This document shows positions 20,899 through 36,473 of a stretch of 64,000 bases of DNA, piece after piece. The stretch's first letter is position 1; the number at the start of each line of letters is the position of its first letter. Source of the stretch: [Zimmermannella] faecalis ATCC 13722 (GTDB lineage: Bacteria; Actinomycetota; Actinomycetes; Actinomycetales; Microbacteriaceae); the NCBI RefSeq assembly GCF_000381765.1, contig NZ_KB907075.1, forward strand, positions 124,001 to 188,000, read 5' to 3'. Made by a program: the position numbers and the translations under genes. Below the pieces are notes generated by a model that worked only from the letters and a program-made list of their open reading frames with translations, did not search any database and was not told the DNA's origin.

Positions 20899-22167
20899 CT
20901 ACCTGCGCACCGCGAACGGCGCGAGGTCGAACGCCCAGCCGTCGGCCGCGGGCTGGCTGCCCGAGACGAGGTCGGTGACGATGCGCCCCGTGAGCGGCCC
21001 GAGCGAGAGGCCGTGCATGTTGTGGCCCGACGCGACGATGACCTCGCGGCGCCCCTCGACCGGGCCGAGCAGCGGCAGTCCATCGGCGGTCATCGGCCGC
21101 GGGCCCATCCACTCGTCGGTGCGGGCCGACCAGTCGGCGTCGTCGATGAGCCGCGAGGCGAAGCTCGCGAGCACGTCGAGCCGGTCGCGGTTGCGCTGCT
21201 CGGGGCGGCCGTCGAACTCCATCATGCCGACGATGCGCAGTCGGCCGTGCATGGGAATCGCGACGCAGTGGAGGTCCATCGAGTGCACGAGCGTGCGCGG
21301 CATCGTGCGCACCGGCACCGTGAACGAGTAGCCCTTGCCGGCGACGACGCCCGCCGACCGGATGCCCGAGCGGCGCAGCACGCGCGAGGTCCACGCCCCG
21401 GCGGCGAGCACGACCCGGTCGCCCGTGATGATGCGACGGGTGCCCCGCTCGTCGATCGCGACGACGGATGCGCCGCTCCCGAGCTGCTCGACCGTCGCGT
21501 CGGTCACGACATTCGCCCCGAGCGCGAGGACGCGCTCGATGAGGCTCGCGACGAACGTGACTGGGTCGAGCGAGAACTCGCCCGGCAGCAGGAACCAGTA
21601 CTCGGTCTCGTCGGTGAGCGCGGGTTCCGCGCGCCGCAGCGCATCGCCCGACATCGGCTCGCCGGGCGCCTGCGCCCAGCCCCGCGCAGCGCGGTCGGCG
21701 TAGAGCGCGTGCGCCGCGAGCAGCGTCGGCTCGTCCTGCGCCGTCATGAGGAACCCGTGGCCCCCGCCCGACGTGTCGACACCGTCGTCGGCCATCGCCT
21801 CGAGCGACGGCAGCATGTGCGGCAAGAACTGCGCGAGCGCGGCGTCGCCCCGCGCCCGCAGCTTCGGCAGCGACGACGCGAGAAAGCCCATCCCGAACCC
21901 CGCGAGCCGCGGCAGCTTGCCGGGCGAGATCGAGAGGTACGAGCGGGTGCTGAAGAGCCCGGCGACGATGTCGCGCGCCGTGTTCGTCGAGGCGAGCGGC
22001 GCGACCATCTGCGGCGTGAGTTCGCCCGCGTTGCCGGTCGCGGCGCCCGCGCCGAGGTGGTCGCGCTCGATGATCGTGACGCGGTGCCCCTCGCGCAGCA
22101 GCCAGTACGCCGAGCAGAGGCCAATGAGCCCGCCGCCCACGACGAGCACGTGGTGCCGCTTGGTCAT
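20899..22167 (-). CDS. FAD-dependent oxidoreductase, DadA-like D-amino-acid dehydrogenase
   Basis: A 422-residue flavoenzyme of the DAO/DadA family. The dinucleotide-binding motif is 'VLVVGGGLIGLCSAYWL' at residues 7-23. The C-terminal family motif reads 'GPRPMTADGLPLLGPV' and 'ASGHNMHGLSLGP'. DadA enzymes oxidise D-amino acids to 2-oxo acids and ammonia. It is the last gene of a six-gene overlapping operon (stop of the upstream gene overlaps the ATG). With a D-/L-amino acid racemase system in the same operon, a D-amino acid substrate fits well, though hydroxyproline or sarcosine oxidase activity cannot be excluded. Confidence 0.85.
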   Translation of the reverse strand: MTKRHHVLVVGGGLIGLCSAYWLLREGHRVTIIERDHLGAGAATGNAGELTPQMVAPLASTNTARDIVAGLFSTRSYLSISPGKLPRLAGFGMGFLASSLPKLRARGDAALAQFLPHMLPSLEAMADDGVDTSGGGHGFLMTAQDEPTLLAAHALYADRAARGWAQAPGEPMSGDALRRAEPALTDETEYWFLLPGEFSLDPVTFVASLIERVLALGANVVTDATVEQLGSGASVVAIDERGTRRIITGDRVVLAAGAWTSRVLRRSGIRSAGVVAGKGYSFTVPVRTMPRTLVHSMDLHCVAIPMHGRLRIVGMMEFDGRPEQRNRDRLDVLASFASRLIDDADWSARTDEWMGPRPMTADGLPLLGPVEGRREVIVASGHNMHGLSLGPLTGRIVTDLVSGSQPAADGWAFDLAPFAVRR

Positions 22168-22883
22168 GACTGCGACCCCTCCGCAAACTCCCGCACCTGC
22201 CGCGCGAAGGCCTCCGCGAGTCGCCGCGCCGCCGCCGTGTTCTCGGTGTCGACCTCGAGTGCCGCCGCCGCGAGCGCGTCGCGGTCGAATCCCTTGCGGC
22301 CGAGCGCCGACTCGTCCCAGTTCGCGACGCGCTCGGCGCCCACCTCGGGGTGAAACTGCAGCGCCCACATCCGCTCGCCGACGCGGAACGCCTGGTGCGC
22401 GACGTCGGCCGAGCGCGCGAGGTGCGCGGCGCCGGGCGGCAGCTGCGTGATCTGGTCGACGTGGTTCTCGATCATGTGTGCCCCGTCGCCGAGCACCCCG
22501 AGCACAGGATCGGCACGGCCGGCGTCGGTCGTCTCGATGCGCACGGCGCCGCTCTCGGGCGTGCCGTAGTCGGCGCGCACCTCGCCGCCGGCGACGTGCG
22601 CGATGACCTGGCCGCCGAGGCAGATGCCGAGCGTCGGCACGCCGCGCTCGAGCGCCTCGGCGGTGAGGGCGCGTTCGGCGGGCAGCCACGGCGCCTCATC
22701 GTCGGCGTCGGGCATGAGCCCGCCCCCGAGCAGCACGAGGCCCGCGGCGTCGCCGAGCTCGCCCGGCAGGCCGTCTTCTCCGACGCGCTCGTCGACCTCG
22801 AGCCCAGCCTCGGCGAGCCACTCGCCGAGGCGCCGCGGCCCCGACTCGCGCGAGTTCGTCACGACGAGCACGCGGGCGGCCAC
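22164..22883 (-). CDS. Class I glutamine amidotransferase-like protein
   Basis: A 239-residue GATase1-fold protein resembling the stand-alone GMP synthase glutaminase domains. The nucleophile motif is 'TLGICLGGQVIAHV' with Cys in GICLGGQ, and the His-Glu pair is in 'MWALQFHPEV'. The start is GTG (22883), overlapping the dipeptidase stop by one base; ATGA overlap joins it to the next gene. Free-standing members hydrolyse gamma-glutamyl compounds or supply ammonia. In this operon a role on gamma-linked D-glutamyl or iso-glutamine peptides is possible but unproven. Confidence 0.82.
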   Translation of the reverse strand: MAARVLVVTNSRESGPRRLGEWLAEAGLEVDERVGEDGLPGELGDAAGLVLLGGGLMPDADDEAPWLPAERALTAEALERGVPTLGICLGGQVIAHVAGGEVRADYGTPESGAVRIETTDAGRADPVLGVLGDGAHMIENHVDQITQLPPGAAHLARSADVAHQAFRVGERMWALQFHPEVGAERVANWDESALGRKGFDRDALAAAALEVDTENTAAARRLAEAFARQVREFAEGSQS

Positions 22884-23980
22884 TACAGCTCCTCCCCCTG
22901 CTGCGTCGTGTCGACGACGGGCCCCGCGAACTCGGGTTCACCCGCTTCCCCGGCGAGGAATCGCCGGTAGTCGTCGTCCGACGCCTCGAGCACCCGCAGC
23001 GCGTTCTCGCAGCCGAGCCCGCGCAGCTCCTGCTCGCTCCAGCCGCGCGATTCGAGCTCGTCGAACAGCGCGGGGTAGCTCGCGACGTCCTCGAGCCCCT
23101 CGGGCATGTCGGGCGAGCCGTCGTAGTCGGCGCCGAGGCCGACGGCCGCGACCCCGGCGACCTCGCGGATGTGGTCGAGGTGGTCGGCCGCGTGCTGCAC
23201 CGTCACGGGCGGCGGCGTGCCCTCACCGCCGGCCTGCCCCCAGTCGTACCGCTCCTGCGAGAGGAACGACGGCACGAACGCGAGCATGACGACCCCGTCG
23301 CGCGCGCCGATCTCGGCGAGCACGTCGTCGGGCACGTTCCGCGGATGCGAAGACAGCGCGAGCGCGCCCGAGTGGCTCACGAGCGGCGGCCGCTGCGTCA
23401 CCTCGAGCGCGTCGCGCATCGTCGACGGGGCGACGTGCGAGAGGTCGACGAGCACGCCGATGCGGTTGAGCTCGCGCACGACGGCGCGGCCGAAGTCGGT
23501 GAGGCCGCCGTGGCGCGCGGCGTCGGTCGCCGAGTCGGCCCAGTCGATCGTGCGCGACCACGTGAGCGTGAGGTAGCGGGCCCCGAGGCGCGCGTAGTTG
23601 CGCAGCACCGCGAGCGAGCCGTCGAACTGCGCCCCGCCCTCGACGCCGATGAGCGACGCGACTTTGCCCGCGGCCATCGCGGCGCGCGCATCCGCCGCCG
23701 TCGGCGCGAACGCGAGCCGCTCGGGATTCGCCCGCACGAAGCGGTGAATGAAGTCGATCTGCTCGAGCGTCGCGGTCACCTGGTCGGCGCCCTGGAGGTG
23801 GTCGGGGTTCACGTACACCGACCAGAACTGCCCGCCGACGCCGCCGCGCTCGAGGCGCGGGAGGTCGGTCTGCGTCGTCGCGATCGCGCCGTCGAGGCCG
23901 GCCGTCGAGTAGGCGAACTGCGTGCGGCACTCCCACGCGAAATCGTTGTGGCCGTCGAGCACGGCGTACTTCGGGGTCAT
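22883..23980 (-). CDS. Membrane dipeptidase-family (renal dipeptidase-like) zinc peptidase
   Basis: A 365-residue M19-family dipeptidase. The metal-binding HxD pair is in 'VLDGHNDFAWE'. Further motifs are 'VASLIGVEGGAQF' with the bridging Glu, 'GVLVDLSHVAPSTM', 'PLVSHSGALAL' and 'GLGADYDGSPDMPEGL'. Bacterial M19 enzymes cleave dipeptides and tolerate a D-amino acid at the C-terminal position, for example L-Ala-D-Glu or L,D-dipeptides. There is no signal peptide, so it acts in the cytosol. Its neighbour, 4 bases overlapping, is the racemase-like enolase gene. Confidence 0.9.
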   Translation of the reverse strand: MTPKYAVLDGHNDFAWECRTQFAYSTAGLDGAIATTQTDLPRLERGGVGGQFWSVYVNPDHLQGADQVTATLEQIDFIHRFVRANPERLAFAPTAADARAAMAAGKVASLIGVEGGAQFDGSLAVLRNYARLGARYLTLTWSRTIDWADSATDAARHGGLTDFGRAVVRELNRIGVLVDLSHVAPSTMRDALEVTQRPPLVSHSGALALSSHPRNVPDDVLAEIGARDGVVMLAFVPSFLSQERYDWGQAGGEGTPPPVTVQHAADHLDHIREVAGVAAVGLGADYDGSPDMPEGLEDVASYPALFDELESRGWSEQELRGLGCENALRVLEASDDDYRRFLAGEAGEPEFAGPVVDTTQQGEEL

Positions 23981-25119
23981 ACTTCCTCCACTTCGGGGAT
24001 TCGCCCGCGGGCCGAATCCCAGGTTCGAGTCGCGAGCGCCGCGATGCGGTCGGCGCGCACGGTGTGGCCGAGTCCCGGCCCGGTCGGCACGCGCACGGCC
24101 CCGTCGACGGCCCGCACGGGCGGGTCGATGAGGTCGTGCTCGTAGTACTTGTCGGAGCCCGAGACGTCCGACGGCAGCGTGAACCCGGCGAGCGACGAAA
24201 CGGCGATGTTTGCCGCGCGGCCGATGCCGAACTCGTGCATGCCGCCGCACCACACGGGAATCCCGAGCTCCCGGGCGCGGTCGTGGGCCCGCACCGCCTG
24301 CGTGAGCCCGCCCATCCGCGACACCTTGATGTTGAGCACGCGGCCCGCGTCCATGCGCACCATCGTCTCGAGATCGTCGAGCTGCACGACCGACTCGTCG
24401 AGGCAGATCGGGGTGTCGAGCCGCCGCTGCAGCTCCTGGTGCGCCGGGAAGTCGCGCACGCCGAACGGCTGCTCGATCATCGTGAGCCCGTATTCGTCGA
24501 GGCGCGCGAACACGTCGAGCGCGGCGTCGCCGAACGCGTAGGCGGCGTTCGCGTCGACGTGCAGGTCGAGGCGCGGATACGCCGACCGCACCGCCGCGAC
24601 GGGGTCGACATCCCAGCCCGGCGCGATCTTCAGCTTGACCCGCCCGTAGCCTGCGTCGACCTGCGCCGCGACCTGTTCGAGGAGCGCATCGATCGACGCC
24701 TCGATGCCGAGCGAAACCCCCGCGTGCACGACGTCGCGCGTGCCGCCGAGGGCGGCCGCGAGCGACTCGCCCCGCCGCTGCGCGAAGGCATCCCACGCGG
24801 CGCCCGCGAACCCGGCCTTCGCGAACTCGTGCCCGCGCACGCGCGCCCAGGCCGCTTCGAGTTCGGCGGGATGCGAGAACTCGGCGCCGAGCAGCGCCGG
24901 CGCGAGGAACTCGGGGGCGACGATCCACGCGGTCTCGGTGGTCTCGGGCCCGAAGTACGGTTCGGCCGGCGTCGCGATCTCGCCCCACCCGACGACGCCG
25001 TCGGTCGTCGTCGCCTCGACGAGCAGGTGCGTGATGTCGGACTTTCTGTGCGAGCTCGTCTCGAAGCTGCGCCGCAACGGCAGCGACACCTCGAACAGCC
25101 GCACCCGCTCAATCCTCAT
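23977..25119 (-). CDS. N-succinylamino acid racemase / o-succinylbenzoate synthase family (enolase superfamily)
   Basis: A 380-residue enolase-superfamily enzyme. The catalytic set is complete: KxK at Lys162/Lys164 (VKLKI), metal ligands Asp189, Glu216 and Asp241 (LDESV), and the opposite base Lys265 (NIKVSRMGG). The C-terminal motif 'WCGGMHEFGIGRAANIA' with 'TLPSDVSGSDKYYEHDL' is characteristic of the NSAR/OSBS subgroup rather than dipeptide epimerases. No menaquinone genes are nearby, but a GNAT transferase and an M20 hydrolase are, which is the known context of NSAR: it racemises N-succinyl-D-amino acids so that the L-form can be deacylated. Confidence 0.88.
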   Translation of the reverse strand: MRIERVRLFEVSLPLRRSFETSSHRKSDITHLLVEATTTDGVVGWGEIATPAEPYFGPETTETAWIVAPEFLAPALLGAEFSHPAELEAAWARVRGHEFAKAGFAGAAWDAFAQRRGESLAAALGGTRDVVHAGVSLGIEASIDALLEQVAAQVDAGYGRVKLKIAPGWDVDPVAAVRSAYPRLDLHVDANAAYAFGDAALDVFARLDEYGLTMIEQPFGVRDFPAHQELQRRLDTPICLDESVVQLDDLETMVRMDAGRVLNIKVSRMGGLTQAVRAHDRARELGIPVWCGGMHEFGIGRAANIAVSSLAGFTLPSDVSGSDKYYEHDLIDPPVRAVDGAVRVPTGPGLGHTVRADRIAALATRTWDSARGRIPEVEEV

Positions 25120-25780
25120 GGGCGGCCTCGTCGTCGGGTTCGTAGAGCGCGAGCTCGCGCGCGAGCCGGTCGCGCTCGGTGAGGCGGCGGCGCGCACCCT
25201 TCGCGCTCGCCGAGGTGAGCGTGCTGAGCAGGTGCGCGACGGCGGCGACCGGCGTCGGGCTGTCGGCGTGCGACGCCGAGCCGGTGTCGACCGTGATGAC
25301 GACGTCGGCGAGGTCGGTGAGCGGCGCGTCGTCGCTGTCGGTGATGATGATGAGCTGCCCTCCCGCCTCGTGGAACAGCCGCCCGAGCCGAATCACGTCG
25401 GCGCTGTAGCGCCGCATCGCGAAGGCGATGAGCACGTCGGTCGACCGCACGTCGGTGAGCGCGACGATCGGGGTGAGCGCCCGCCACTCGATGAGGTGGA
25501 TGTTCGAGAGGGTCGCCGAGAGATCGGTCGACAGCAGCAGCGCGTAGGCCGCGCTCTTGCCCTCGCCCGCGATGAAGCGCCGCCGGGCGCCGAGCACGAG
25601 CGACGCGGCGGCCTGCACCGAGCCGCGCTCGGCGAGGCGCGCGAACGTGTCGGCGAGGGCGCGCGTGTCGCTCGCGATCACGCGGTCTTGCATGGTCGCG
25701 GCGCTGAGGTTCTTGCGCACCCGGTTGCCGAAGCGGTCGCGCGGCGAGACGAGGCTGCGGTTGAGTTCCTGGTCGGTCAT
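25109..25780 (-). CDS. SIS-domain protein, RpiR-related but without the usual HTH
   Basis: A 223-residue protein whose residues 50-190 match the SIS part of MurR/RpiR proteins: 'RRRFIAGEGKSAAYALLLST', 'TDVLIAFAMRRYSADVIRLG' and 'GGQLIIITDSDDAPLTDLAD'. The N-terminus is only about 45 residues, short of the roughly 75-residue RpiR DNA-binding domain, and I see no HTH in it. It could be a ligand sensor, an isomerase-like protein or a regulator acting through a partner. ATG 25780 overlaps the GNAT gene stop, and its end overlaps the racemase start by 11 bases, so it is a coupled operon member. Confidence 0.8.
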   Translation of the reverse strand: MTDQELNRSLVSPRDRFGNRVRKNLSAATMQDRVIASDTRALADTFARLAERGSVQAAASLVLGARRRFIAGEGKSAAYALLLSTDLSATLSNIHLIEWRALTPIVALTDVRSTDVLIAFAMRRYSADVIRLGRLFHEAGGQLIIITDSDDAPLTDLADVVITVDTGSASHADSPTPVAAVAHLLSTLTSASAKGARRRLTERDRLARELALYEPDDEAAHED

Positions 25781-26595
25781 GCGCTCACCGCCTCGTCAGT
25801 GGTTGTTGACACGACGCTCGGCACGGCGAGGTAGCCGGCCGTCGCTTCCGAGACCCGGCGGCAGCTCACGAGCACGCGGCCCGAGTGCGTCACGGTCGCG
25901 AGCGAGTCGCGCAGCCGCGCCGCGATGCGCCCGCGCTCGTCGCTGCCGGGCTCGGGTGCCGTCGTCGGCACCGCGATCCAGGTCGCGCCGTCGCCCGCGT
26001 CGCACGTGTCGCCCCAGTCGCGGGCGTCGAGCACCGGCGTGGCTGCGGTCGCCGCGCGGTTCGCGCCGCCGGTGGCGGCCGTGAGGTCCCACTCGACCAT
26101 GACCCGGTCAGTGCCCGGCCGGTCGTAGTAGTCGGTGTGAAACTCGAGCCCCGTCGCGCCGAGGCTGTCGAGGTTGAAGTGGCCGTTGCGGGCGACGAGC
26201 GGGTCGAACGTCCAGCGCATCCGCTCGTGGCCCCACTCGAGCGCGACCTCGCGCTGCAGCAGCTTCAGGGCGCGCCCCGCCCCGCGCCCCTGGTAGTCGG
26301 CGTCGACGACGGCGGCCTGCGAGTAGTGAAAGTCGCGGCCCGCCGCGTCGCGCCCCGCGAAGCCGTACGCAAAGCCGACGATGCGGTCGCCGTCGTACAC
26401 ACCCACGGCCGAGCCGCCGTTGCGGATGATCGCCTGAATGAGTAGCGGGTTGAGCGTGATGCGCTTCGCCTCGTAGCGGAACACCCGGGTGTAGAGCTCG
26501 GCGGCCTGGCCGAGCTCGGCGTCGCTCGACAGTCGGCGTCCGGTCAACGTGCCGCTCAACATTGAGCCGGCATCGAGGGACGAGGCATTCGCCAT
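25777..26595 (-). CDS. GNAT N-acyltransferase (COG3375-like), probable N-succinyltransferase of D-amino acids
   Basis: A 272-residue GNAT-fold transferase. The acyl-CoA-binding motif A is 'AAVVDADYQGRGAGRALKLL', and 'RMRWTFDPLVARNGHFNLDS' with 'GLEFHTDYYDRP' is typical of the group found next to NSAR/OSBS genes. In Geobacillus kaustophilus the counterpart is a succinyl-CoA:D-amino acid N-succinyltransferase; the same role is inferred here from the matching neighbourhood. The ATG at 26595 has AGGAG 8 bases upstream and is the first gene of the leftward six-gene operon. A longer frame to 26661 crosses the promoter and is not used. Confidence 0.82.
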   Translation of the reverse strand: MANASSLDAGSMLSGTLTGRRLSSDAELGQAAELYTRVFRYEAKRITLNPLLIQAIIRNGGSAVGVYDGDRIVGFAYGFAGRDAAGRDFHYSQAAVVDADYQGRGAGRALKLLQREVALEWGHERMRWTFDPLVARNGHFNLDSLGATGLEFHTDYYDRPGTDRVMVEWDLTAATGGANRAATAATPVLDARDWGDTCDAGDGATWIAVPTTAPEPGSDERGRIAARLRDSLATVTHSGRVLVSCRRVSEATAGYLAVPSVVSTTTDEAVSA

Positions 26596-26636
26596 CTTAC
26601 GTCTCCTATGCTTACCCCGATTCGGAGTTGTTGGCG

Positions 26637-26679: not shown

Positions 26680-26686
26680 GCATAAC

Positions 26687-27826
26687 ATGCGCAACGATGC
26701 CGCCCCGACCGCCGTCGATCACGACGCGCTCGAGCTGCTGCGCGCGCTCGTCGAGATCGAGTCGCCGAGCGGCGATGCCGCGGGCGTCGGCCGCATCGGG
26801 GCCGTGCTGCGCGAGCGGCTCGAGGGCGCCGGCGCGAGCGTCGAGGCCCACGCCTCCCCGCTCGGTGAGCACCTCGTCGCCGAGGTGCCGGGGCGCAACG
26901 CTGCGCCCCTGCTCCTCATCGGCCACCTCGACACCGTGTGGCCCGTCGGCACCCTCGCGGGCGACGTGCCGTGGCGCGTCGAGGGCGACGTCGTGCGCGG
27001 CCCCGGCGCCTACGACATGAAGTCGGGCCTCGTCATCATGGTGCGCGCGCTCGAGCGGATCGCACACACTCGGTCCAGGCAACCGGCTCGGCCAGTGCGG
27101 CTCGTGCTCGTGTGCGACGAGGAGCTCGGCTCGCCGCACTCCGCCGACCTCGTGCGCGAGTGCGCCGCGGGCGCCCGGGCCGCGCTCGGGTTCGAGTCGC
27201 CGCATCCCGACGGCGCGCTCAAGGTGGGCCGCCGCGGCAGCGCCCGGGTCGCGATCGAGGTCGGGGGCCGCGCGGCGCACGCCGCGCTCGACCCCGAGGC
27301 GGGCGTCTCGGCGATCGACGAGCTCGTCGACCAGCTCCTGCGCGTGCGCGAGATCGTCGCCGACCCAGCGCTCGTCTCCCACGTGCTCTGCAACGTCGGC
27401 ACAATCTCGGGCGGCGGGCGCGCGAACGTGATTCCCGACGCCGCGCGCGCCGAGCTCGGCCTGCGCTTCATCGACGCCGAGACCGAGCGCGCCGTGCTCG
27501 ACTCGCTCGCCCGCCTCACGCCGCGGCGCGAGGGCGCGACCCTCGACGTCGCCCGCGTGAGCGGCCGGCCGACCTGGCGCGCGAGCGACGGCGACCGGAT
27601 GCTCACCGACAAGATCGCGCGCGTCGCGGCCGCGCTCGGGCAGCACGTCGAGGGCCGCCCCGCCGCGGGCGGCGGCGACACGAACCTCACGGGCGCGCTC
27701 GGCATCCCGACCGTCGACGGCCTCGGCCCCCGCGGCGGCGGCGCGCACGCCGTGCACGAGCACGCGCTGTTGAGCTCCCTCGGCGAGCGCATCGACCTCG
27801 TCACGCGCCTGCTCACGACGCTGTAG
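26687..27826 (+). CDS. M20 family metallopeptidase, CPG2/ArgE-like (probable N-acyl-L-amino acid hydrolase)
   Basis: A 379-residue zinc amidohydrolase. The metal-binding sequences are 'LLLIGHLDTVWPVG' (His and the catalytic Asp) and 'RGPGAYDMKSGLVIMVRAL' with the bridging Asp. 'LVCDEELGSPHS' has the catalytic Glu pair, and 'GRAAHAALDPEAGVSAIDEL' is the dimerisation domain. Carboxypeptidase G2-like enzymes cleave N-acyl or gamma-glutamyl amino acids. In the known NSAR operon the M20 partner is the N-succinyl-L-amino acid hydrolase that pulls the racemisation forward. It is divergent from the GNAT-SIS-NSAR operon and 260 bases upstream of the oligopeptide importer. Confidence 0.88.
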   Translation: MRNDAAPTAVDHDALELLRALVEIESPSGDAAGVGRIGAVLRERLEGAGASVEAHASPLGEHLVAEVPGRNAAPLLLIGHLDTVWPVGTLAGDVPWRVEGDVVRGPGAYDMKSGLVIMVRALERIAHTRSRQPARPVRLVLVCDEELGSPHSADLVRECAAGARAALGFESPHPDGALKVGRRGSARVAIEVGGRAAHAALDPEAGVSAIDELVDQLLRVREIVADPALVSHVLCNVGTISGGGRANVIPDAARAELGLRFIDAETERAVLDSLARLTPRREGATLDVARVSGRPTWRASDGDRMLTDKIARVAAALGQHVEGRPAAGGGDTNLTGALGIPTVDGLGPRGGGAHAVHEHALLSSLGERIDLVTRLLTTL

Positions 27827-28035
27827 GGGCCAGACAACGGCCAACAGCATCCTGGAGCGACCGAATTTGTACGGAATGATTCGTTACGCATCTCCACGTC
27901 AGGTGGCGAGTTGCCCGGCACGCCGCACATCTCGAGCACCCCATCCCGACCATGAACATGCTGATCTCTGGCCGATCCCCCACAATCTGCGCCAGGATCC
28001 AGCAAATCGAACGTCAAGGATACGTAACGGATAAG

Positions 28036-28064: not shown

Positions 28065-28087
28065 CAAGGGCAACCCGGAGGGCAACG

Positions 28088-29929
28088 ATGCCAGCCACGT
28101 TGGAAGGATCCACGATGCGAATCTCCGCCAGATCGACCCTGTTTCGCACCGCGGCTGCGCTCACCGCCGCCGCGGTCGGACTCACGCTGTCGCCCGCGAG
28201 CCCCGTGCTCGCGAGCGAGACCGAGGAGGCGAGCGCGTCGACGATGCGCATCGCGACCTCGGGCTTCATCGACTCGTTCAACCCGTTCACGTCGATCTAC
28301 CTGACACCGACGAACGCCCTGCGCTACTTCTACGAGAACCTCGTGCAGTACAGCGCCGAAGACGGCTCGCCCACCGAGGGCCTCGCCGAGTCGTGGGAGA
28401 CCGAGGAGGACGGCGCGCGCTGGGTCTATCACATCCGCGAGGGCATGCAGTGGTCTGACGGCGAGCCCATCACTTCGGAAGACGTCAAGTGGACGTACGA
28501 CCAGATGATGAACGACGAGATCATGGCCACCGCGAACGGCAGCCTCGTGAGCAACTTCGAGTCGGTCGAGGCGCCCGACGACCAGACGCTCGTCATCAAC
28601 CTCATCGAACCGCAGGCGCCCGTGCCCGGCGTCGAGATCCCCGTCGTGCCCGAGCACGTGTGGTCGCAGATCGACAACCCGGGTGAGTTCGCGAACGACT
28701 CCGAGGTCGTCGGCTCGGGCCCGTTCGTGCTCGAGAGCTACTCGCCGAACGAGGGCTTCATCATGACCGCGAACGAGAACTTCTGGCGCGGCAAGCCCGG
28801 CATCGACCGGCTGCAGTACGTCTACTACACCGACGCCGACGCCTCGATTCAGGCGCTGCGCGCGGGCGACATCGACTTCATCTCGGGCCTCACGCCGACG
28901 CAGTTCAACGCGCTCGAGGGCCAGGAGGGCATCACGACCGTCTCGGGTGAGGGCCGCCGCTACACGTCGATCGCGCTCAACCCCGGCCAGGAGACCCGCG
29001 ACGGCGAGGCCTACGGCTCGGGCAACCCGGCGCTCCACGACGTCAAGGTGCGCCAGGCGATCCGCCAGGGCATCGACGCGCAGGCGCTGCTCGACAACGT
29101 GCTCGACGGCCAGGGCGTGCTCGCGACGAGCTTCGTGCCCGCCTCGTACGCGACGTGGATGCTCCCCGAAGACGACGACGCGATCATGCAGTTCGACCCC
29201 GAGGCCGCGGCCGCCCTCCTCGACGAAGCCGGCTGGACGGAAGGCGCGAACGGCATCCGTGAGAAGGACGGCGAGACCCTCTCGCTCACGCTCCAGATCG
29301 ACGCCTCTGACCCGACCGAGCAGGCGCTCGCCGAATACGTGAAGCCGTGGATGGCCGACATCGGCATCGACCTGCAGGTCGAGTCGACCGACAGCGACAC
29401 CGTGAGCGCGAACGCGACCGCGGGCAACTACGACATGTACTTCTCGGGCTGGTCGCTCGGGCCCGACCCCGACTACCAGCTCAGCATCAACACCTGCGCG
29501 AACCTGCCCACCGACACCGAGGGCAACGGCGGCACGACGCAGGACGGCTACTGCGACGAGGAGTTCGACGCGCTCTACGACCAGCAGCGCGTTGAGCTCG
29601 ACGAAGACGCCCGCGTCGACCTCGTGCACCAGATGCTCGCGATGAACTACACCTCGTCGGTGCAGGTCGCGCTCTACTACCCGAACCAGCTCGAGGCGTA
29701 CCGTTCCGACCGGTTCGAGGGCTTCACGACGATGCCCACCGAGAACGGCATCATCGCGAACCAGTCGGGCTACTGGGGCTTCCAGTCGGTCACGCCCGTG
29801 GGCGAGGGCGGCAGCAGCGGCGCCTCGCAGACCGGGCTGTGGATCGTCATCGGCGGCATCGTCGTCGTCGCGGTGATCGTCGTGATCGTCGTCGTGAGCC
29901 GCCGCAAGAAGTCGGCCGACATCGAATAG
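28088..29929 (+). CDS. Peptide ABC transporter substrate-binding protein with C-terminal membrane anchor
   Basis: A 613-residue family 5 (DppA/OppA-like) binding protein. 'STMRIATSGFIDSFNPFTSI' opens the mature domain and 'WETEEDGARWVYHIREGMQW' is the family signature. The N-terminal signal ends near 'SPVLASETEE', a signal peptidase I site, with no lipobox cysteine. Instead the C-terminus carries a 20-plus-residue hydrophobic helix (about 586-606) followed by RRKK, a stop-transfer anchor. Both ATG 28088 (GGAGGG 6 bases before) and ATG 28115 (GGAAGGA before) are plausible starts. It begins a rightward operon with two permeases, a double ATPase and two serine hydrolases. Confidence 0.9.
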   Translation: MPATLEGSTMRISARSTLFRTAAALTAAAVGLTLSPASPVLASETEEASASTMRIATSGFIDSFNPFTSIYLTPTNALRYFYENLVQYSAEDGSPTEGLAESWETEEDGARWVYHIREGMQWSDGEPITSEDVKWTYDQMMNDEIMATANGSLVSNFESVEAPDDQTLVINLIEPQAPVPGVEIPVVPEHVWSQIDNPGEFANDSEVVGSGPFVLESYSPNEGFIMTANENFWRGKPGIDRLQYVYYTDADASIQALRAGDIDFISGLTPTQFNALEGQEGITTVSGEGRRYTSIALNPGQETRDGEAYGSGNPALHDVKVRQAIRQGIDAQALLDNVLDGQGVLATSFVPASYATWMLPEDDDAIMQFDPEAAAALLDEAGWTEGANGIREKDGETLSLTLQIDASDPTEQALAEYVKPWMADIGIDLQVESTDSDTVSANATAGNYDMYFSGWSLGPDPDYQLSINTCANLPTDTEGNGGTTQDGYCDEEFDALYDQQRVELDEDARVDLVHQMLAMNYTSSVQVALYYPNQLEAYRSDRFEGFTTMPTENGIIANQSGYWGFQSVTPVGEGGSSGASQTGLWIVIGGIVVVAVIVVIVVVSRRKKSADIE

Positions 29930-29982
29930 CCGACCCCGCGTATCCGGCCCGCTAGGCCCCGAACGAACCCGAGCACATCACC

Positions 29983-31026
29983 ATGTCGAATGCTGTTCCT
30001 CCGTCAACATCCGCAATCCAGACCAGCGCACAAGCTGAAGAACCCCAGCGCGATTCGTCGTTCTGGCGGTACCTCGGCGCGAAGCTGGGCGGAGCCGGCA
30101 TCAGCCTCGTCATGGTGGTGTTGCTCGGGTTCTTCGCCTTCAAGCTGCTCCCGGGCGACCCCGTCGCGAAGCTCGCTCGGGAGCGGCCGATGTCGATCGA
30201 GCAGATCGAGTCGCTGCGCGAGCAGTACGGCCTGAACAAGCCGCTGTTCCAGCAGTTCATCGACTTCATCGTCAACGTCTTCACCCTGAACTTCGGCGAG
30301 AGCTACGTCTACCGCCGCCCCGTCTCCGACCTCATCGGGCAGTACTTCTGGCCGACGATTCTGCTCACCGGCACGGCGGCGATCATCGCGATCGTGCTCG
30401 GGCTCTGGCTCGGCCAGCGGGCGGCGTGGCGCCACGGCGGGCTCTTCGACCGCATCGCGACCGGCACGTCGCTCGTGTTCTGGTCGGTGCCGACCTTCTG
30501 GCTCGGCCTGATCTTGCTCATGATCTTCGGCGGCACGCTCCGCTGGTTCCCGACCGGCGGCATGCGATCTCCCGATGCGCCGAGCGACCCGCTCGGGCTC
30601 ACGCTCGACGTCATCACGCACCTCGTGCTGCCCGTGGTGACGATGGTCGCGGTGATCTTCGCCCAGTACCTCATGGTCATGCGCTCGTCGCTCATCGAAG
30701 AGATGAACGCCGACTACCTCACGACCGCCCGCGCGAAGGGGCTCCGCGAAGACCTCGTGCGCGAGCGCCACGCCGTGCCGAACGCGCTGCTGCCCACCGT
30801 GACGCTCGTGTTCATGCACATCGGCGGCCTCATCGCCGGCGCCGTCACGGTCGAGACCGTCTTCTCGTGGCCCGGCCTCGGCAAGCTCACGTTCGAGGCG
30901 ATTCAGGGCCCCGACCTCCCACTGCTGCAGGGCACGTTCGTCGTGTTCTCGGCGATCATCATCGTCATGAATTTGCTGGCCGACCTCATCTACCGCCAGC
31001 TCGACCCCCGAGTGAGGCGCGCATGA
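29983..31026 (+). CDS. Peptide ABC transporter permease, DppB/OppB-like
   Basis: A 347-residue membrane protein with about six transmembrane helices. The N-terminal part 'LLPGDPVAKLARERPMSIEQ' followed by 'REQYGLNKPLFQQFIDF' is typical of DppB, and the EAA-loop is 'DYLTTARAKGLREDLVRERH' followed by AVPNALLPTV. A 40-residue polar N-terminal extension precedes the first helix. It forms the translocation pore with the DppC-like protein encoded next, whose start overlaps this stop (ATGA). Substrate in this context is probably short peptides, perhaps murein-derived. Confidence 0.92.
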   Translation: MSNAVPPSTSAIQTSAQAEEPQRDSSFWRYLGAKLGGAGISLVMVVLLGFFAFKLLPGDPVAKLARERPMSIEQIESLREQYGLNKPLFQQFIDFIVNVFTLNFGESYVYRRPVSDLIGQYFWPTILLTGTAAIIAIVLGLWLGQRAAWRHGGLFDRIATGTSLVFWSVPTFWLGLILLMIFGGTLRWFPTGGMRSPDAPSDPLGLTLDVITHLVLPVVTMVAVIFAQYLMVMRSSLIEEMNADYLTTARAKGLREDLVRERHAVPNALLPTVTLVFMHIGGLIAGAVTVETVFSWPGLGKLTFEAIQGPDLPLLQGTFVVFSAIIIVMNLLADLIYRQLDPRVRRA

Positions 31027-31931
31027 CCACCACGGCAACCCGCTCACCGGGCCAGATGGCGCGCACGCGCCGCTGGCAATCGTTCACGCAGTTCTGCCGC
31101 GACTTCAGCGGCTACCGCGCCGGGATGTTCGGCGTCGGCTTCCTCGCGATCGTCGCGATCATCGCCGCGCTCGCGCCCGTCATCGCGCCCGACTGGATGC
31201 TCGACGTCACGAAGATCGGCACGCCCGACCGCTTCGCGGCCCCGTCGGGCGAGCATCCGCTCGGCACCGACAACCAGGGCCGCGAGCTCTGGGTGCGCAT
31301 GGTCTGGGGCGCGCAGTCATCGCTGCTCGTCGGCCTCGCCGCGACCGCGATGTCGATGGTCATCGGCACGATCGTCGGCATGGCCGCCGGCCACTTCAGC
31401 GGCTGGTTCGGCGGGCTCCTCATGCGCATCATCGACTTCTTCCTCGTGCTGCCGTCGCTGATTCTCGCGATCGTGCTCTCGTCGGTGCTCGAGCGCGGCA
31501 CGCTCACGATCATCATCGCGATCGGCCTCACCTCGTGGGCCGGCACCGCCCGCGTCGTGCGCGCGCAGACCCTCTCGGTCGAGTCGCGCGACTACATCGA
31601 GCGCTCCCGCGCGCTCGGCGCCGGGCACTGGCACCTCATGACGAAGCACCTTCTGCCGGGCGTGCTGCCGCTCGTGCTCGCGAACACGACGCTCACGATC
31701 GGCTCGGCGATCATCGCCGAATCGACCCTCGCGTTCCTCGGCCTCGGCGACCCGCTCACGCAGTCGTGGGGCACGATCCTCAAGAACGCGACCGACGCAT
31801 CCAGCGCCTCGAACGGCTACTGGTGGTACATCCTCATTCCCGGCCTCGCGATCGTGCTCGTCGTGCTCGCCTTCACGCTCATCGGCCGCGCCGTCGAGAA
31901 CATCCTGAACCCCACCCTGAGGAGCCGCTGA
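31023..31931 (+). CDS. Peptide ABC transporter permease, DppC/OppC-like
   Basis: A 302-residue permease. It shows the DppC features 'HPLGTDNQGRELWVRMVWGA' and 'GWFGGLLMRIIDFFLVLPSL', and the EAA-loop 'DYIERSRALGAGHWHLMTKH' followed by LLPGVLPLV. About six membrane segments are visible; N- and C-terminal polar tails are short. ATG overlaps the previous stop, and its own stop overlaps the ATPase start by one base (TGATG), so the pore and motor genes are translationally coupled. Confidence 0.92.
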   Translation: MTTTATRSPGQMARTRRWQSFTQFCRDFSGYRAGMFGVGFLAIVAIIAALAPVIAPDWMLDVTKIGTPDRFAAPSGEHPLGTDNQGRELWVRMVWGAQSSLLVGLAATAMSMVIGTIVGMAAGHFSGWFGGLLMRIIDFFLVLPSLILAIVLSSVLERGTLTIIIAIGLTSWAGTARVVRAQTLSVESRDYIERSRALGAGHWHLMTKHLLPGVLPLVLANTTLTIGSAIIAESTLAFLGLGDPLTQSWGTILKNATDASSASNGYWWYILIPGLAIVLVVLAFTLIGRAVENILNPTLRSR

Positions 31932-33574
31932 TGCCCGACCTGCTCTTCGACGACGTCTCGATCGTCTACCGCACCTCGGGCCGCGGCGACCGCGGCGAGG
32001 TGCACGCCGTGAAGAATGTCACGCTCGATCTGCCGGCCGGTTCGACCCTCGGCATCGCCGGCGAATCGGGCTCGGGCAAGTCGACGCTCGTCATGAGCGT
32101 GCTGCGGCTGCTGCCGAAGACCTCGAAGCTCACGGGGCGCGTGCTCATCGGCGACACCGACCTCGCCGACCTCAATTTCGGGCAGCTGCGCGCGCTGCGC
32201 TGGGCCGAGGCGTCGATCATCTTCCAGGGCGCGATGCACTCGCTCAACCCCGTGCGCACCGTGGGACAGCAGATCATCGAGGCGCTCGAGCTCCACGTGA
32301 GCGAGAGCTGGAAGACCGACTCCGCCCGCAAGCAGCGCGTCGCGCAGCTGCTTGGCGACGTCGACCTGCCGCCCGAGAAGGCCGCCGCGTATCCGCACGA
32401 GCTGTCGGGCGGGCAGCGCCAGCGCGTCATGATCGCGATGGCCCTGGCCTGCGAGCCCGACATCATCATCGCCGACGAGCCGACGACGGCCCTCGACGTC
32501 ATCGTGCAGGAGCAGATCCTCACGATGATCTCCGACCTCGTCGCCGAGCGCGGCATCTCGCTGCTCATGATCAGCCACGACCTCTCGGTGCTCGCGACCG
32601 CGTGTGAGCGCATCGCCGTCATGCGCGACGGCGAGGTCGTCGAGGTCGGGCCGGCGCGGCAGATCTGCCTCGAGCCGCAGGAGCCGTACACGCAGCAGCT
32701 CGCGAACGCGTTCCCCACGATCGGCGACCCCGCCTCGCGGCTGCGCCCCGTCACCCGCCACGGCGACGACGGCGCCGAGCCGCGCGGCGTCGCCGACGAC
32801 GCGCCCCTCCTGCTCGACGCGAAGGGCGTCAGCGTCACCTACCGCACGGGCGGGCGACTCGTGCCGGCCGTGCGGAACGTCGACCTGCGGGTGCGCCGCG
32901 GCGAGATCGTCGCGCTCGTCGGGCAGTCGGGCTCGGGCAAGTCGACGCTCGCGCGCACGCTCATCGGCCTGCAGCAGGCCGACCCCGGCTCGCAGATCAC
33001 GTTCGACGGGGCGCCGCTGCCCAAGAAGGGGCGGGCGCTGCGCGAGTTCCACAACCAGGTGCAGCTCGTGCTGCAAGACCCGTCGGCCGCGCTCAACCCG
33101 AAGCTCAGCGTGTACGAGTCGGTCGCCGAAGGGCTGCGCATTCAGCGCTACCAGGGCGACGAGATGGAGCGCGTGCGCGAGAGCCTCGTGGCCGCCGAGC
33201 TCTCGCCGCCCGAGCGCTACTTCAACGCGATTCCGCAGGAGCTCTCGGGCGGGCAGCGCCAGCGCGTCGTCATCGCGGGCGCCCTCGCGCTCGGCCCCGA
33301 GATGCTCATCGCCGACGAGCCCGTCGCCTCGCTCGACGCGTCGGTTCGCGGCGAGATCCTCGGCCTGCTCCTGTCGCTGCGGAACCGCCTCGGCCTCGCC
33401 GCCGTCGTCATCACGCACGACCTCGGGCTCGCGTGGAACATCGCCGACACGGTCGCCGTCATGTACCGCGGCGAGATCGTCGAGTCGGGCCCGACTGAGC
33501 AGGTGCTCCTGCACCCGCAGCACGAGTACACCTCGACCCTCCTCGCCGCCGCGCCGAGCATCCAGGAGGCGTAG
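31931..33574 (+). CDS. Peptide ABC transporter ATPase, fused DppD-DppF double domain
   Basis: A 547-residue protein with two complete ATP-binding cassettes. The first has Walker A GESGSGKST, signature LSGGQRQRV and Walker B 'DIIIADEPTTALD'. The second has GQSGSGKST, LSGGQRQRV and 'EMLIADEPVASLD'. Each is preceded by the core beta strands and followed by an H-loop ('LLMISHDLSVLA', 'AVVITHDLGLAW'). Both are of the oligopeptide/dipeptide class. It energises the DppB-DppC pore as an internal heterodimer, as in GsiA- and DdpD-like fusions. An AGGAGG site within its last codons serves the next gene. Confidence 0.93.
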   Translation: MPDLLFDDVSIVYRTSGRGDRGEVHAVKNVTLDLPAGSTLGIAGESGSGKSTLVMSVLRLLPKTSKLTGRVLIGDTDLADLNFGQLRALRWAEASIIFQGAMHSLNPVRTVGQQIIEALELHVSESWKTDSARKQRVAQLLGDVDLPPEKAAAYPHELSGGQRQRVMIAMALACEPDIIIADEPTTALDVIVQEQILTMISDLVAERGISLLMISHDLSVLATACERIAVMRDGEVVEVGPARQICLEPQEPYTQQLANAFPTIGDPASRLRPVTRHGDDGAEPRGVADDAPLLLDAKGVSVTYRTGGRLVPAVRNVDLRVRRGEIVALVGQSGSGKSTLARTLIGLQQADPGSQITFDGAPLPKKGRALREFHNQVQLVLQDPSAALNPKLSVYESVAEGLRIQRYQGDEMERVRESLVAAELSPPERYFNAIPQELSGGQRQRVVIAGALALGPEMLIADEPVASLDASVRGEILGLLLSLRNRLGLAAVVITHDLGLAWNIADTVAVMYRGEIVESGPTEQVLLHPQHEYTSTLLAAAPSIQEA

Positions 33575-33576
33575 CG

Positions 33577-34428
33577 GTGCCCGATCGCCTCACCTGGAGC
33601 GCCCGCGCCGTCGACCTCGACACCGGCGAGGAGCTCTTCGCCCGCACGCCCGACGTCGTGTGCCGAACCGCGAGCGTCGGCAAGGTGTTCCTGCTCATCG
33701 AGGTCGCGCGCCGGCTCGCTGACGGCACGCTCGGGGCGGATGCGCGCATCGAGATTTCCGAGGCGCATCGCGTCGCCGACTCGGGCCTGCTCTATCGGTT
33801 CCGCGACCAGCGACTCACGGTGCCCGACGCGGCCCTGCTCGTCGGCGCGTTCAGCGATAACCTCGCGACGAACGCCCTGCTGCACCTGTGCGGCCTCGAC
33901 CGGGTGCACGCCGTCGCCGCCGAGCTCGGCCTGCGCGACACCGCACTGCTTGACTACATTCGCGACGACCGTGGCCCCGAGCATCCGTGGACCCCGTCGT
34001 ACGGCACCGGCCGCGAGCTCGCCGACGTGCTGCGCCGGCTCGCGCTCGGCGAGGTCGTCTCGCCCGAGGTGTCGACGCAGGTGCTCGACTGGCTCGCCTC
34101 CGACGCCGACACGTCGATGCTCGCCGACGCGTTTCTGCTCGACCCGCTCGCCCACGTCGACCCCGAGTATCAGGGCATGGTGCTGCGGCATAAGACCGGC
34201 AGCGTCGAGACCGCGCGCATTGACGTCGGCGTGCTGCGGGGGCCGAGGGCGGGCGTCGCGTACGCCGTCGCCGTGAACTGGGATTCGGGCGACCTGCGCG
34301 CCGAGGCGATCGACGGGATGCGCCGGATCGGCGAGCGGCTGCGGCAGTACGTGACGGGGCTCGCGCGCGACGAAGCTTCGGCGCCGGGAGACGAACCCGG
34401 CGCAACCGAACCGAGCGGAGGAGCATGA
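33577..34428 (+). CDS. Cytosolic serine hydrolase of the class A beta-lactamase fold
   Basis: A 283-residue penicillin-recognising-fold enzyme. The three active-site motifs are present: SxxK at Ser33-Lys36 (ASVGKVF), SDN at 93-95 and KTGS at 206-209. The ExxLN motif with the deacylating Glu of true class A beta-lactamases is not seen. The GTG start at 33577 is fixed by AGGAGG 7 bases upstream and by the ATPase stop 3 bases before, so there is no signal peptide and the protein must be cytosolic. It is fifth in a peptide importer operon, so an amidase or peptidase acting on imported D-amino-acid peptides seems more likely than antibiotic resistance. Confidence 0.85.
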   Translation: MPDRLTWSARAVDLDTGEELFARTPDVVCRTASVGKVFLLIEVARRLADGTLGADARIEISEAHRVADSGLLYRFRDQRLTVPDAALLVGAFSDNLATNALLHLCGLDRVHAVAAELGLRDTALLDYIRDDRGPEHPWTPSYGTGRELADVLRRLALGEVVSPEVSTQVLDWLASDADTSMLADAFLLDPLAHVDPEYQGMVLRHKTGSVETARIDVGVLRGPRAGVAYAVAVNWDSGDLRAEAIDGMRRIGERLRQYVTGLARDEASAPGDEPGATEPSGGA

Positions 34429-36473
34429 GCATCGAATTCCCCACCGACGACGGTTGCCGCTGGTCGGTGCTCGTGCGCGACATCGACACGGGCGAGGAGC
34501 TGCTCAGCCACGCGCCCGATCGCGTGCTGAGCACCGCGAGCATCGGCAAGGTGTTTCTGCTGCACCGCCTGCTGCACGAGGTCGACGCGGGCACGCGCTC
34601 GCTCGACGACGTCGTGACGCGGCGGCCGAGCGAGGCGATCGGCGGGTCGGGCATGTGGCAGCTGCTGCAGCAAGACACGTTCACGCTCTACGACCTCGGC
34701 ATGCTCATCGGCGCCGTGAGCGACAACGCGGCGACGAACACGCTCGCCCGCGTCATCGGGCTCGACGCCGTGCACGCGCACACGCGGGCGCTCGGCTACG
34801 AGCACTCGGCGCTCAACGACGCGATCCGCTGGCCGATTCCGCCCGGCATGCCGCGGCGGCTTTCCGAGGGATGCGCGACCGAGCTCGTCGACTTCGTCTC
34901 GCGCGTGCAGCGCGGCGAGGGGCTCTCGGCCGCGTCGTCGGATGTGCTGCGCGGCTGGTTCGGCGCGGGCATGGACCTCTCGATGGTCGGCTCGGTGTTC
35001 GACCTCGACGGGCCCGACCACAACGGCTTCGACGGCGGCGTGTGGTTCTGGAACAAGACCGGCACGATCTCGACCGTGCGCGCCGACATCGGCGTCGTCA
35101 TGAGCCCGACCCGCCGCATCGCGTACGCCGTGCTCGCCGAGTGGAATCGCGGCGCCGACGCCCGCGGGCCAGTGCTCGAGACGATGGCCGAGGTGGGGCT
35201 CCTCATCGGCGAGGCGCTCGGGTGGCGCGATCCGCGGCCGAAGCGGTCGGCGGCGCGGGAGGCCGCGCAGCGCGGTGCGGCGGTGGCAGAGTCCGCGCCG
35301 TCGGCCGAGCGACTCCGCGCGGCCGCGGCCGACCCCCGCCTGCGCGACGTGCGCTACCTCGTCGTCGACGCCGAAACCGGCGAGGAGTTGCTCGCCCACC
35401 AGCCCGACGAGCCGTCGCCGCCCGCGAGCGTCATGAAGACCGTGACCGGCACGCTCGCGCTCCACGCGCTCGGGGCGCAGGCGCGCATCCCCACCCGCGT
35501 GCTGCGAGGCCGCGAGCCCGGCGAGGTCGTGCTCGTCGGCGGCGGCGACGTGACCCTCACGCGCGTGCCGACGGGCGAGCCGAGCTTCTACCCGCATCCG
35601 GCTCACCTCGACGCGCTCGCGAGCGCCGCGCGGGAGCGGGTCGGCGAGGTCACGCGGCTCGTGCTCGACGACCGGCTGTTCGCCGCGTCGACCTGGCACC
35701 CGAGCTGGGACGACGAGGGGCGCTCGCCCGACAACTACATTCCCTACATCACGTCGCTGCAGGTCGACGGCGATCGCGACGACCCCGTCGTCGACGACAG
35801 CCCACGCAGCGAGAACCCGGTCGGCCGGGCCGGCAAGGCGTTCGCGGCGCTGCTCGACGGCCCCGACGTCGTGCGGGCCGCGGCCGGCGACCACTTCGAG
35901 GGCGAGGAGCTCGCGCGCGTCGAGTCGGCGCCGGTCGAGGCGCTCGTGCGGGAGATCCTGCGGTCATCCGACAACGCGCTCTCGGAGGCACTCGCACGGC
36001 TCGTCGCGCTCGACCGAGGCGGGGATGCATCGTGGGAGTCGATCGCGGCCGAGCTCACGGCGGCGGCCGCAGAGCTCGGGCTCGACACCACCGGCTGCAC
36101 CTTCGTCGACGGCTCGGGGCTCAGCGAACACAACCGCGTGACGCCTCGCCTCATCGTCGACCTGGTGCGTCGCGGCCACCGCGGCGAGGGCGCGTTCGCG
36201 ACCCTCGTCGAGCGGCTCATGCAGACCGGCAGCACGATGGCGCCGTCGCGCTTCACCGGCGCGAACCGCGTCGTCGGCGACGCCGTGCGGGCGAAGACCG
36301 GCTTCATCAACTCGGTGCACTCGCTCGCGGGGCTCGTGCGCACCCGCGGCGGGCGCGAGCTCGCGTTCGCGGTGTTCGCGTGCGACCTCGCGACCCCCGT
36401 CGAGGCCGACACCCGCCACGCCGTCGACGACTTCGTGACACGGCTCCACCTCGACGGGGATGCGCTGCGCTAG
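34425..36473 (+). CDS. Fusion of class A beta-lactamase-fold and PBP4/DacB (S13)-like domains, no signal peptide
   Basis: A 682-residue protein with two penicillin-binding-fold domains. Domain 1 (1-270) resembles the preceding gene: SxxK Ser39-Lys42, SDN 99-101, KTGT 211-214; where class A enzymes have ExxLN it reads H-S-A-L-N. After an Ala/Arg-rich linker, domain 2 (295-682) is a D-Ala-D-Ala carboxypeptidase of the S13 family: SxxK Ser335-Lys338, SDN 515-517, 'VDGSGLSEHNRVTP' at 562-575 and KTG 624-626. S13 enzymes are normally exported; here ATG 34425 overlaps the preceding stop (ATGA), which excludes a signal peptide. Cytosolic DD-peptidase action on imported peptides is my inference. Confidence 0.85.
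   Translation: MSIEFPTDDGCRWSVLVRDIDTGEELLSHAPDRVLSTASIGKVFLLHRLLHEVDAGTRSLDDVVTRRPSEAIGGSGMWQLLQQDTFTLYDLGMLIGAVSDNAATNTLARVIGLDAVHAHTRALGYEHSALNDAIRWPIPPGMPRRLSEGCATELVDFVSRVQRGEGLSAASSDVLRGWFGAGMDLSMVGSVFDLDGPDHNGFDGGVWFWNKTGTISTVRADIGVVMSPTRRIAYAVLAEWNRGADARGPVLETMAEVGLLIGEALGWRDPRPKRSAAREAAQRGAAVAESAPSAERLRAAAADPRLRDVRYLVVDAETGEELLAHQPDEPSPPASVMKTVTGTLALHALGAQARIPTRVLRGREPGEVVLVGGGDVTLTRVPTGEPSFYPHPAHLDALASAARERVGEVTRLVLDDRLFAASTWHPSWDDEGRSPDNYIPYITSLQVDGDRDDPVVDDSPRSENPVGRAGKAFAALLDGPDVVRAAAGDHFEGEELARVESAPVEALVREILRSSDNALSEALARLVALDRGGDASWESIAAELTAAAAELGLDTTGCTFVDGSGLSEHNRVTPRLIVDLVRRGHRGEGAFATLVERLMQTGSTMAPSRFTGANRVVGDAVRAKTGFINSVHSLAGLVRTRGGRELAFAVFACDLATPVEADTRHAVDDFVTRLHLDGDALR

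Follow-up and report, generated by a model that had tools for sequence, protein, structure and literature searches.

What is the function of the two divergent gene groups that span positions 20899–36473 of the 64,000-nucleotide stretch of DNA analyzed here? This stretch, the window, comes from [Zimmermannella] faecalis ATCC 13722 (contig NZ_KB907075.1, positions 124,001–188,000; G000:C2:124001-188000 in our labeling, where G marks genomes, G000 being that of the window, and L marks loci). The genome has 2.85 Mb, and the G+C content of the window is about 70%. A preliminary description, made from the sequence, had recognized a GNAT acyltransferase, an enolase resembling N-succinylamino acid racemase (NSAR), and an M20 hydrolase, together with a dipeptidase, a DadA-like dehydrogenase, a peptide ATP-binding cassette (ABC) importer, and three cytosolic domains of DD-peptidase type, and proposed that the set imports peptides containing D-amino acids, for example from cell walls, and converts the D-residues. 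We suggest that the island serves as an accessory pathway for the catabolism of peptides that contain D-amino acids, most likely stem peptides of murein, and that it converts D- to L-residues irreversibly. We consider this somewhat better than an even proposition. The gene content, the operon overlaps, the linkage, the active-site motifs, the lack of signal peptides, and a separate o-succinylbenzoate synthase (OSBS) were all computed here, and from these we infer the reactions, their order, the substrates, and the cargo of the importer.

The minus-strand operon runs from GNAT through a SIS-domain protein, the NSAR-type enolase, an M19 dipeptidase, and a class-I glutamine amidotransferase (GATase) fold to a flavin adenine dinucleotide (FAD)-dependent oxidase, and all five junctions overlap by 1–11 bases (four bases for NSAR/M19). 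The plus-strand group comprises M20, a family-5 binding protein, two permeases, a double ATPase, BlaA, and a BlaB-S13 fusion; the last two carry the three penicillin-binding-fold domains (Beta-lactamase2 at 33577–34428; Beta-lactamase2 and S13 at 34425–36473). Pfam and NCBIfam searches placed GNAT (25777), the enolase (23977), and M20 (26687) where the preliminary description had them, and its dipeptidase, peptide-type ABC importer genes, and three penicillin-binding-fold domains are also present. The genes it listed are thus real, but the SIS (25109–25780) and GATase (22164–22883) genes of the operon had been left out.

Table 1. Genes of the island, with window coordinates, strand, and supporting matches.
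Feature	Position	Strand	Remarks
GNAT N-acyltransferase	25777..26595	-	First gene of minus operon; Pfam Acetyltransf_1 28.3 bits, cut-off 20.7
SIS-domain protein	25109..25780	-	Between GNAT and NSAR; Pfam SIS
NSAR-type enolase-superfamily racemase	23977..25119	-	NCBIfam TIGR01928 292 bits, cut-off 200.65
M19 dipeptidase	22883..23980	-	Pfam M19 347 bits; closest PDB 3id7, E 1.5e-95
Stand-alone class-I GATase fold	22164..22883	-	Pfam GATase and C26 over cut-off
FAD-dependent amino acid oxidase/dehydrogenase	20899..22167	-	Pfam DAO 177 bits
M20 metallohydrolase, divergent from GNAT	26687..27826	+	Pfam M20 91 bits; closest PDB carboxypeptidase G2, E 2.6e-41
Family-5 solute-binding protein	28115..29929	+	Pfam SBP_bac_5 307 bits
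Importer permease 1	29983..31026	+	Pfam BPD_transp_1 144 bits
Importer permease 2	31023..31931	+	Pfam BPD_transp_1 107 bits
Importer ATPase, two ABC domains	31931..33574	+	Pfam ABC_tran in two stretches, oligo_HPY
BlaA class-A-fold serine hydrolase	33577..34428	+	Pfam Beta-lactamase2 136 bits
BlaB-S13 fusion	34425..36473	+	Beta-lactamase2 137 bits (~34425-35210); Peptidase_S13 184 bits, PBP4-like (from ~35280)

Is the enolase a racemase, or is it the only OSBS of the cell for menaquinone, the possibility that the preliminary description had raised? The TIGR01928 model, which we take to cover OSBS and NSAR alike, cannot decide this by its name. A dedicated MenC is found elsewhere in the genome (G000:C3:159795-160799; PRK02901 375 bits, cut-off 288), only 694 bases from MenB, and this rules out the island enolase as the OSBS of the cell. 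The PDB chains nearest to the window enolase are N-acylamino acid racemases, and the columns K162, K164, D189, E216, D241, K265, and R268, which include the catalytic Lys, Asp, and Glu positions, are invariant in seven aligned sequences. The motif N-x-K-x-x-R-x-G-G occurs in 92 of 92 enolase relatives and the stricter pattern K-x-K-x-x-P in 87 of them. The window enolase has both the Lys pair of the NSAR/OSBS subfamily and an Arg three residues past the second Lys, which we take to be the NSAR-associated R266. On the model for DgcA, the N-acetyl-D-Glu racemase, it reaches 97.6 bits against a cut-off of 400, and it is not assigned to that group. For GNAT, no PDB relative was found below E 0.1. 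We propose that GNAT N-acylates (succinylates) D-amino acids and that M20 is an N-acyl-L-amino acid hydrolase; the D- to L-conversion would be irreversible because M20 would free the L-amino acids.

How conserved is this gene set? A scan of named genomes with an NSAR alignment gave 259 relatives, and the best 80 of these 259 actinobacterial NSAR loci, to which all counts out of 80 refer, were read with flanks of up to 10 kb. The trio of GNAT, NSAR, and M20 is present in 67 loci, 61 of them with SIS; GNAT itself is found in 79 at 80 bits, and the SIS gene is short and GNAT not seen in L129. M19 occurs in 30 loci, always with the GATase, and S66, BlaA, BlaB, or S13 accompanies it in 26. The four M19 loci that have none of these are L110 and L114, whose genomes have them in other loci (L046 and L045), and L098 and L131, which end near M20. 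Both importer permeases and the ATPase are present in 26 loci (all four importer genes in 25) from Agromyces, Gordonia, Leifsonia, Leucobacter, Microbacterium, and Pseudoclavibacter, and all 26 have the trio, so the predicted co-occurrence of importer and trio is borne out in six genera. Agrococcus has M19 and the GATase, with the importer not in view. In 49 of the 80, only the core is seen, with neither M19 nor the importer within the read flank. The closest named relative by NSAR sequence is in Leucobacter sp. cx-328, and a contig scan of the named genomes with the BlaB-S13 fusion protein found no relative.

Searches with the window proteins mapped 12 loci in the family. The island is seen in G100, G047, G088, G051, G133, G186, and G233, in some cases cut by locus edges; BlaB lies elsewhere in G047, and SIS, BlaA, and the oxidase were not seen in G088. 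G065 has a partial island at a contig end; in G003 the core lies close to MFS and TetR genes and a related importer, with no class-A genes. In the family sample of 249 genomes, an NSAR orthologue (E ≤ 1e-120) was found in 13 and a class-A hydrolase (at least 200 bits to the fusion protein) in 12, the latter among the matches listed, with at most four candidates scored per genome. Nine genomes share both (Fisher p 1.7e-11, the window's genome included); by genus, six are shared of nine and eight in 85 (p 5e-6, again with the window's genome). When five more family genomes with weaker, profile-found class-A relatives are counted as having the hydrolase without NSAR, p is 1.8e-9 for genomes and 3.5e-5 for genera.

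Could these be two modules that are neighbors through shared inheritance, rather than one pathway? The core stands alone in the 49 loci mentioned above; in L039, from the genus of the window, the island lacks exactly GNAT, NSAR, and M20; and in G062 (L049 and L083) the peptide genes are on one contig and M20 and GNAT-SIS-NSAR on another. However, genes of both modules overlap inside one operon, and their co-occurrence, when counted by genus, greatly exceeds what would be expected, so that we find this explanation hardly credible. The single complete set of the preliminary description holds insofar as every importer locus has the trio; the trio is nevertheless a separable module, because of the core-only loci and L039. 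In a tree of 87 NSARs, which excludes five duplicate genomes, all 35 rows with the peptide module belong to the same half, which has 44 members; the remaining 43 include none. The peptide-module label changes six times on this tree, compared with 27.6 in shuffles, when L125 and L048 (edge-cut) and L130 (M19 in two pieces) are scored as lacking the module. Since the core is widespread and the peptide module is confined to one half, the peptide module joined the core in part of the NSAR tree; later losses followed, and the island was probably transferred to Gordonia. Far from the peptide-module clade, the core of a Haloactinopolyspora locus has as neighbors an amidohydrolase of PF07969 and a Beta-lactamase2 gene of class A (L159:12464-14997).

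The SxxK, SDN, and KTG motifs are invariant in 16 of 16 class-A domains. The predicted model of BlaA (predicted local distance difference test score, pLDDT, 84) matches 4ewf, 2wuq, and PBP-A; in Foldseek order, a Sphaerobacter protein called a beta-lactamase is followed by S. cacaoi BlaB and PBP-A. PBP-A, an enzyme of class-A fold, acts both as a DD-carboxypeptidase and as an endopeptidase, with a preference for muropeptides whose D-Glu is amidated (PMC11189452). The class-A domains share with it the fold, the three motifs, and, by sequence alignment, a residue other than Glu at the Glu166 position, and we propose that BlaA is a PBP-A-like DD-peptidase. In that study, PBP-A was produced in the periplasm, whereas a signal peptide is missing from the island proteins. 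Two genomes of the window's genus, G100 and G211, also have the fusion protein.

To assess the compartment, a hydrophobic segment was sought from the most upstream in-frame start to the catalytic Ser (at the protein start for S66), and proteins that lacked the motif or a complete frame were excluded. Starts close to the domain gave no separation (4 of 19 PBP4 controls against 0 of 6), and the most upstream start was used instead. No signal peptide was found by this measure in BlaA (0/11), BlaB (0/14), AmpC-like (0/33), or S66 (0/13) proteins, nor in the island S13 domains (0/6), whereas 10 of 11 PBP4 homologues from family genomes have one; of the 19 PBP4 controls, 8 did not match the motif and were set aside. 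This agrees with the cytosolic location suggested in the preliminary description for the BlaA, BlaB, and S13 domains. The BlaB-S13, M19-GATase (L042), and BlaB-GATase (L049) fusions agree with one shared compartment.

The class-A beta-lactamase fold, the membership of MccF in the S66 family, and the AAT-fold and AmpC-like genes in relatives might also suggest detoxification of, or resistance to, antibiotics with D-residues or beta-lactams. However, the Glu166 column is occupied by Arg (Arg129) in 16 of 16 aligned class-A domains, there is no secretion signal, and the importer would carry the compound inward, which makes this explanation very improbable. A class A beta-lactamase as such is ruled out because both Glu166 and the export signal are missing.

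Which peptides would be the substrates? Many relatives have an LdcA-like S66 carboxypeptidase: it accompanies the peptide genes in seven of eight other-genus genomes (G047, G088, G051, G133, G186, G065, and G233; not G062), and it is found in 24 of the 80 named loci. The four importer loci without it are L110 (its fuller locus L046 has one), L121 and L126 (both with S13 at the edge of the flank), and L135 of Agromyces. Within the genus of the window, G100 has only a match below cut-off, and G211 has one far from its island. Although S66 reaches 138 of 378 bits on the muramoyltetrapeptide carboxypeptidase model, below cut-off, its PDB matches are nearer to murein-tetrapeptide carboxypeptidases (E 3e-28) than to MccF (2e-18), so that an MccF function is less likely. 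The islands of relatives also contain an AAT-fold hydrolase (by Pfam in G133 and G065), and an AmpC-like hydrolase is present in 31 of the 80; S58 and C1 peptidases adjoin the island of G051.

The LdcA-type S66, S13, and PBP-A-like hydrolases point to stem peptides ending in D-Ala. They argue against general scavenging of D-peptides and D-amino acids from racemized proteins, peptide antibiotics, and other polymers, with murein as one source only. We consider that explanation doubtful, and it is the core without murein-type peptidases in 49 loci, the patchiness of the peptide module and of NSAR itself, and an amidohydrolase of the PRK09061 kind near the core in 11 of the 80 (profile-tested in two, below cut-off) that speak for it. 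Gly-D-Glu and D-Ala-D-Dab peptides were described in the Rhodoluna wall (PMC4156110) and D-ornithine in many Microbacterium (PMC10757982), so the walls of Microbacteriaceae are rich in D-residues. The island is also carried by Gordonia amarae (L112), a species with a wall of the A type. This, with the restriction of NSAR to 13 of 249 family genomes, favors scavenging over housekeeping recycling.

The cargo of the importer is less clear-cut. Among NCBIfam models, the binding protein scores highest on NikA (195 bits, short of the cut-off of 393), and NikA proteins are also its best PDB matches. This raises the possibility that the importer takes up nickel, a metallophore, or another non-peptide ligand, and that only the enzymes make up the D-amino acid pathway. 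We think this quite improbable, since AppA and DppA, which bind peptides, follow with only slightly lower scores and, in the named loci with the importer, peptidases or the trio are always present. Thus, the import of cell-wall peptides proposed in the preliminary description gains from the S66 LD-carboxypeptidase marker in relatives and loses from a binding protein that is equally NikA-like. Nine Microbacterium islands (L099, L101, L105, L113, L116-L119, and L130) have a second peptide-type importer after the AmpC-like gene, at about 15.7–19 kb, with 27–39% identity to the importer of the window.

We propose that M19 splits X-D-Glu and other dipeptides with a terminal D-residue and that the GATase-fold enzyme is a gamma-D-glutamyl hydrolase or deamidase. 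The GATase residues Cys88, His178, and Glu180 are invariant in seven aligned sequences, and its nearest PDB chain is 3m3p, with gamma-glutamyl peptidase 1 also matched. A role of the GATase in D-Glu amidation is unsupported: MurT_C is found in five of ten island genomes, and not in G000, G100, G211, G051, or G062. For the DadA-like dehydrogenase of the preliminary description, a DAO-family FAD gene is indeed present, but the D-amino acid dehydrogenase model gives only 143 of 383 bits, and the nearest PDB chains are glycine oxidases (4ysh). Such a gene adjoins the island only in the genus of the window, in G047, and in Leucobacter; it is a lineage-specific addition.

What is the function of the SIS protein? 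Pfam SIS is found in all 46 aligned members, and Pfam detects no DNA-binding domain in any of them. The predicted model (pLDDT 87) resembles the RpiR SIS domain 3sho, RccR, and MurR, and the gene is kept in L039, where the trio is gone. MurQ was rejected as its identity, since none of ten genomes has a MurQ over cut-off and the model best fits RpiR-type domains. As a guess, it may be a ligand-binding regulator or sensor, or a scaffold. In a Pseudonocardia assembly (L151:9352-11184), SIS and NSAR are in one frame; a frameshift may be the cause, because M20 matches there in two overlapping pieces.

In the proposed pathway, the family-5 ABC importer would first bring in free peptides. The cytosolic PBP-A-like hydrolases and the S13 domain would trim C-terminal or bridge D-residues, joined in many relatives by the LdcA-like S66 carboxypeptidase. 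The GATase-fold enzyme would then open or deamidate the gamma-D-glutamyl linkage, and M19 would split the leftover X-D-Glu dipeptide. Finally, GNAT would N-acylate the freed D-amino acids, the NSAR-type enolase would racemize them, and M20 would release the L-amino acids, while the FAD oxidase may deaminate other D-amino acids.

Several observations weigh against the breakdown of murein stem peptides by this route. There is no S66 in the genome of the window or in G062, and none within the read flank of the Agromyces locus L135. As for the murein sugar arm, MurQ is over cut-off in none of the ten island genomes (a result that does not extend to NagZ and Mpl, which were not searched). The binding protein resembles nickel-binding relatives as closely as peptide-binding ones, and the top Foldseek match of BlaA is annotated as a beta-lactamase. 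In L040, L043, and L088-L094, the class-A hydrolase is found by itself, outside the island. In a phylum sample of 396 genomes it was found in eight at E ≤ 1e-30, including that of the window, and the other seven have no further island gene near it, apart from weak MFS matches; the class-A family is therefore no island marker by itself. The lone BlaB of L040:2463-4207 and L043:13763-15582 follows a LysR-type regulator; in one of these genomes (G047), the remainder of the island is located elsewhere. Furthermore, the genome of the window has a D-Ala-D-Ala ligase, so that cytosolic DD-peptidases would threaten its own precursors or need to spare them.

In B-type walls, the alpha-carboxyl of D-Glu bears the cross-bridge. 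A more far-reaching and rather doubtful version of the pathway holds that the cytosolic penicillin-binding-fold enzymes fully degrade murein peptides, that all D-residues, including D-diamino acids, are converted to L, and that the RpiR-like SIS is the sensor. The cell's own D-Ala-D-Ala precursors would be spared because the enzymes require a substituted D-Glu alpha-carboxyl, in keeping with the preference of PBP-A for amidated D-Glu.

The island combines known kinds of system, NSAR conversion and the use of murein peptides. An NSAR pathway for irreversible D- to L-amino acid conversion was reportedly described in Geobacillus kaustophilus by Sakai in 2006. GNAT, the NSAR-type enolase, and M20 are neighbors here as well, in a genome with a separate OSBS; unlike that pathway, the core of the window includes SIS, has an importer and peptidases attached, and has an M20 closest to carboxypeptidase G2. 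Escherichia coli ddp (D-Ala-D-Ala) and Bacillus subtilis dpp-ykf also place a peptide importer beside D-peptide enzymes, but no VanX-type gene was found among the island genes scanned with Pfam, and racemization is proposed to act on N-acyl amino acids and not on a dipeptide. Known cases of murein-peptide recycling are those with LdcA in E. coli and with ABC import of muropeptides by YejBEF-YepA in Agrobacterium (PMC9790009). The island likewise has a peptide ABC importer, and many relatives have the LdcA-like S66; by contrast, the genome of the window lacks this LD-carboxypeptidase and a MurQ over cut-off, has its penicillin-binding-fold peptidases in the cytosol, and would break peptides down fully instead of re-using them. 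DgcN-DgcA (PMC12363236) racemizes D-Glu irreversibly through N-acylation, an enolase-type racemase, and hydrolysis, the same sequence that we propose here; the window has GNAT (the DgcN family was not searched), and its enolase falls far below the DgcA cut-off. A literature search, with subscription journals largely outside it, found no description of the complete arrangement.

If the proposal of murein-peptide catabolism is correct, the NSAR pathway would have a conserved physiological context that includes an importer and peptidases, and there would be an undescribed route by which Microbacteriaceae, along with some other actinobacteria, feed on the cell walls of bacteria. Cytosolic DD-peptidases of the penicillin-binding fold would also raise the direct and testable question of how the cell shields its own wall precursors.

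At the boundaries of the island, the GntR gene at 20053 has no homologue over 60 bits in the compared loci, and the MFS/TetR pair at 36498–38652 has homologues over 60 bits in L038 and L087. Searches of the 64-kb window found neither a tRNA nor an Rfam family that reached its gathering score. The lowest G+C of the sixteen 4-kb blocks, 0.672, is at 28001–32000, over the binding protein and permease genes. At 17290–19536, the window encodes a 748-residue protein whose E1_dh, transketolase pyrimidine, and transketolase C-terminal domains unite the two parts of the E1 component of a 2-oxoacid dehydrogenase.

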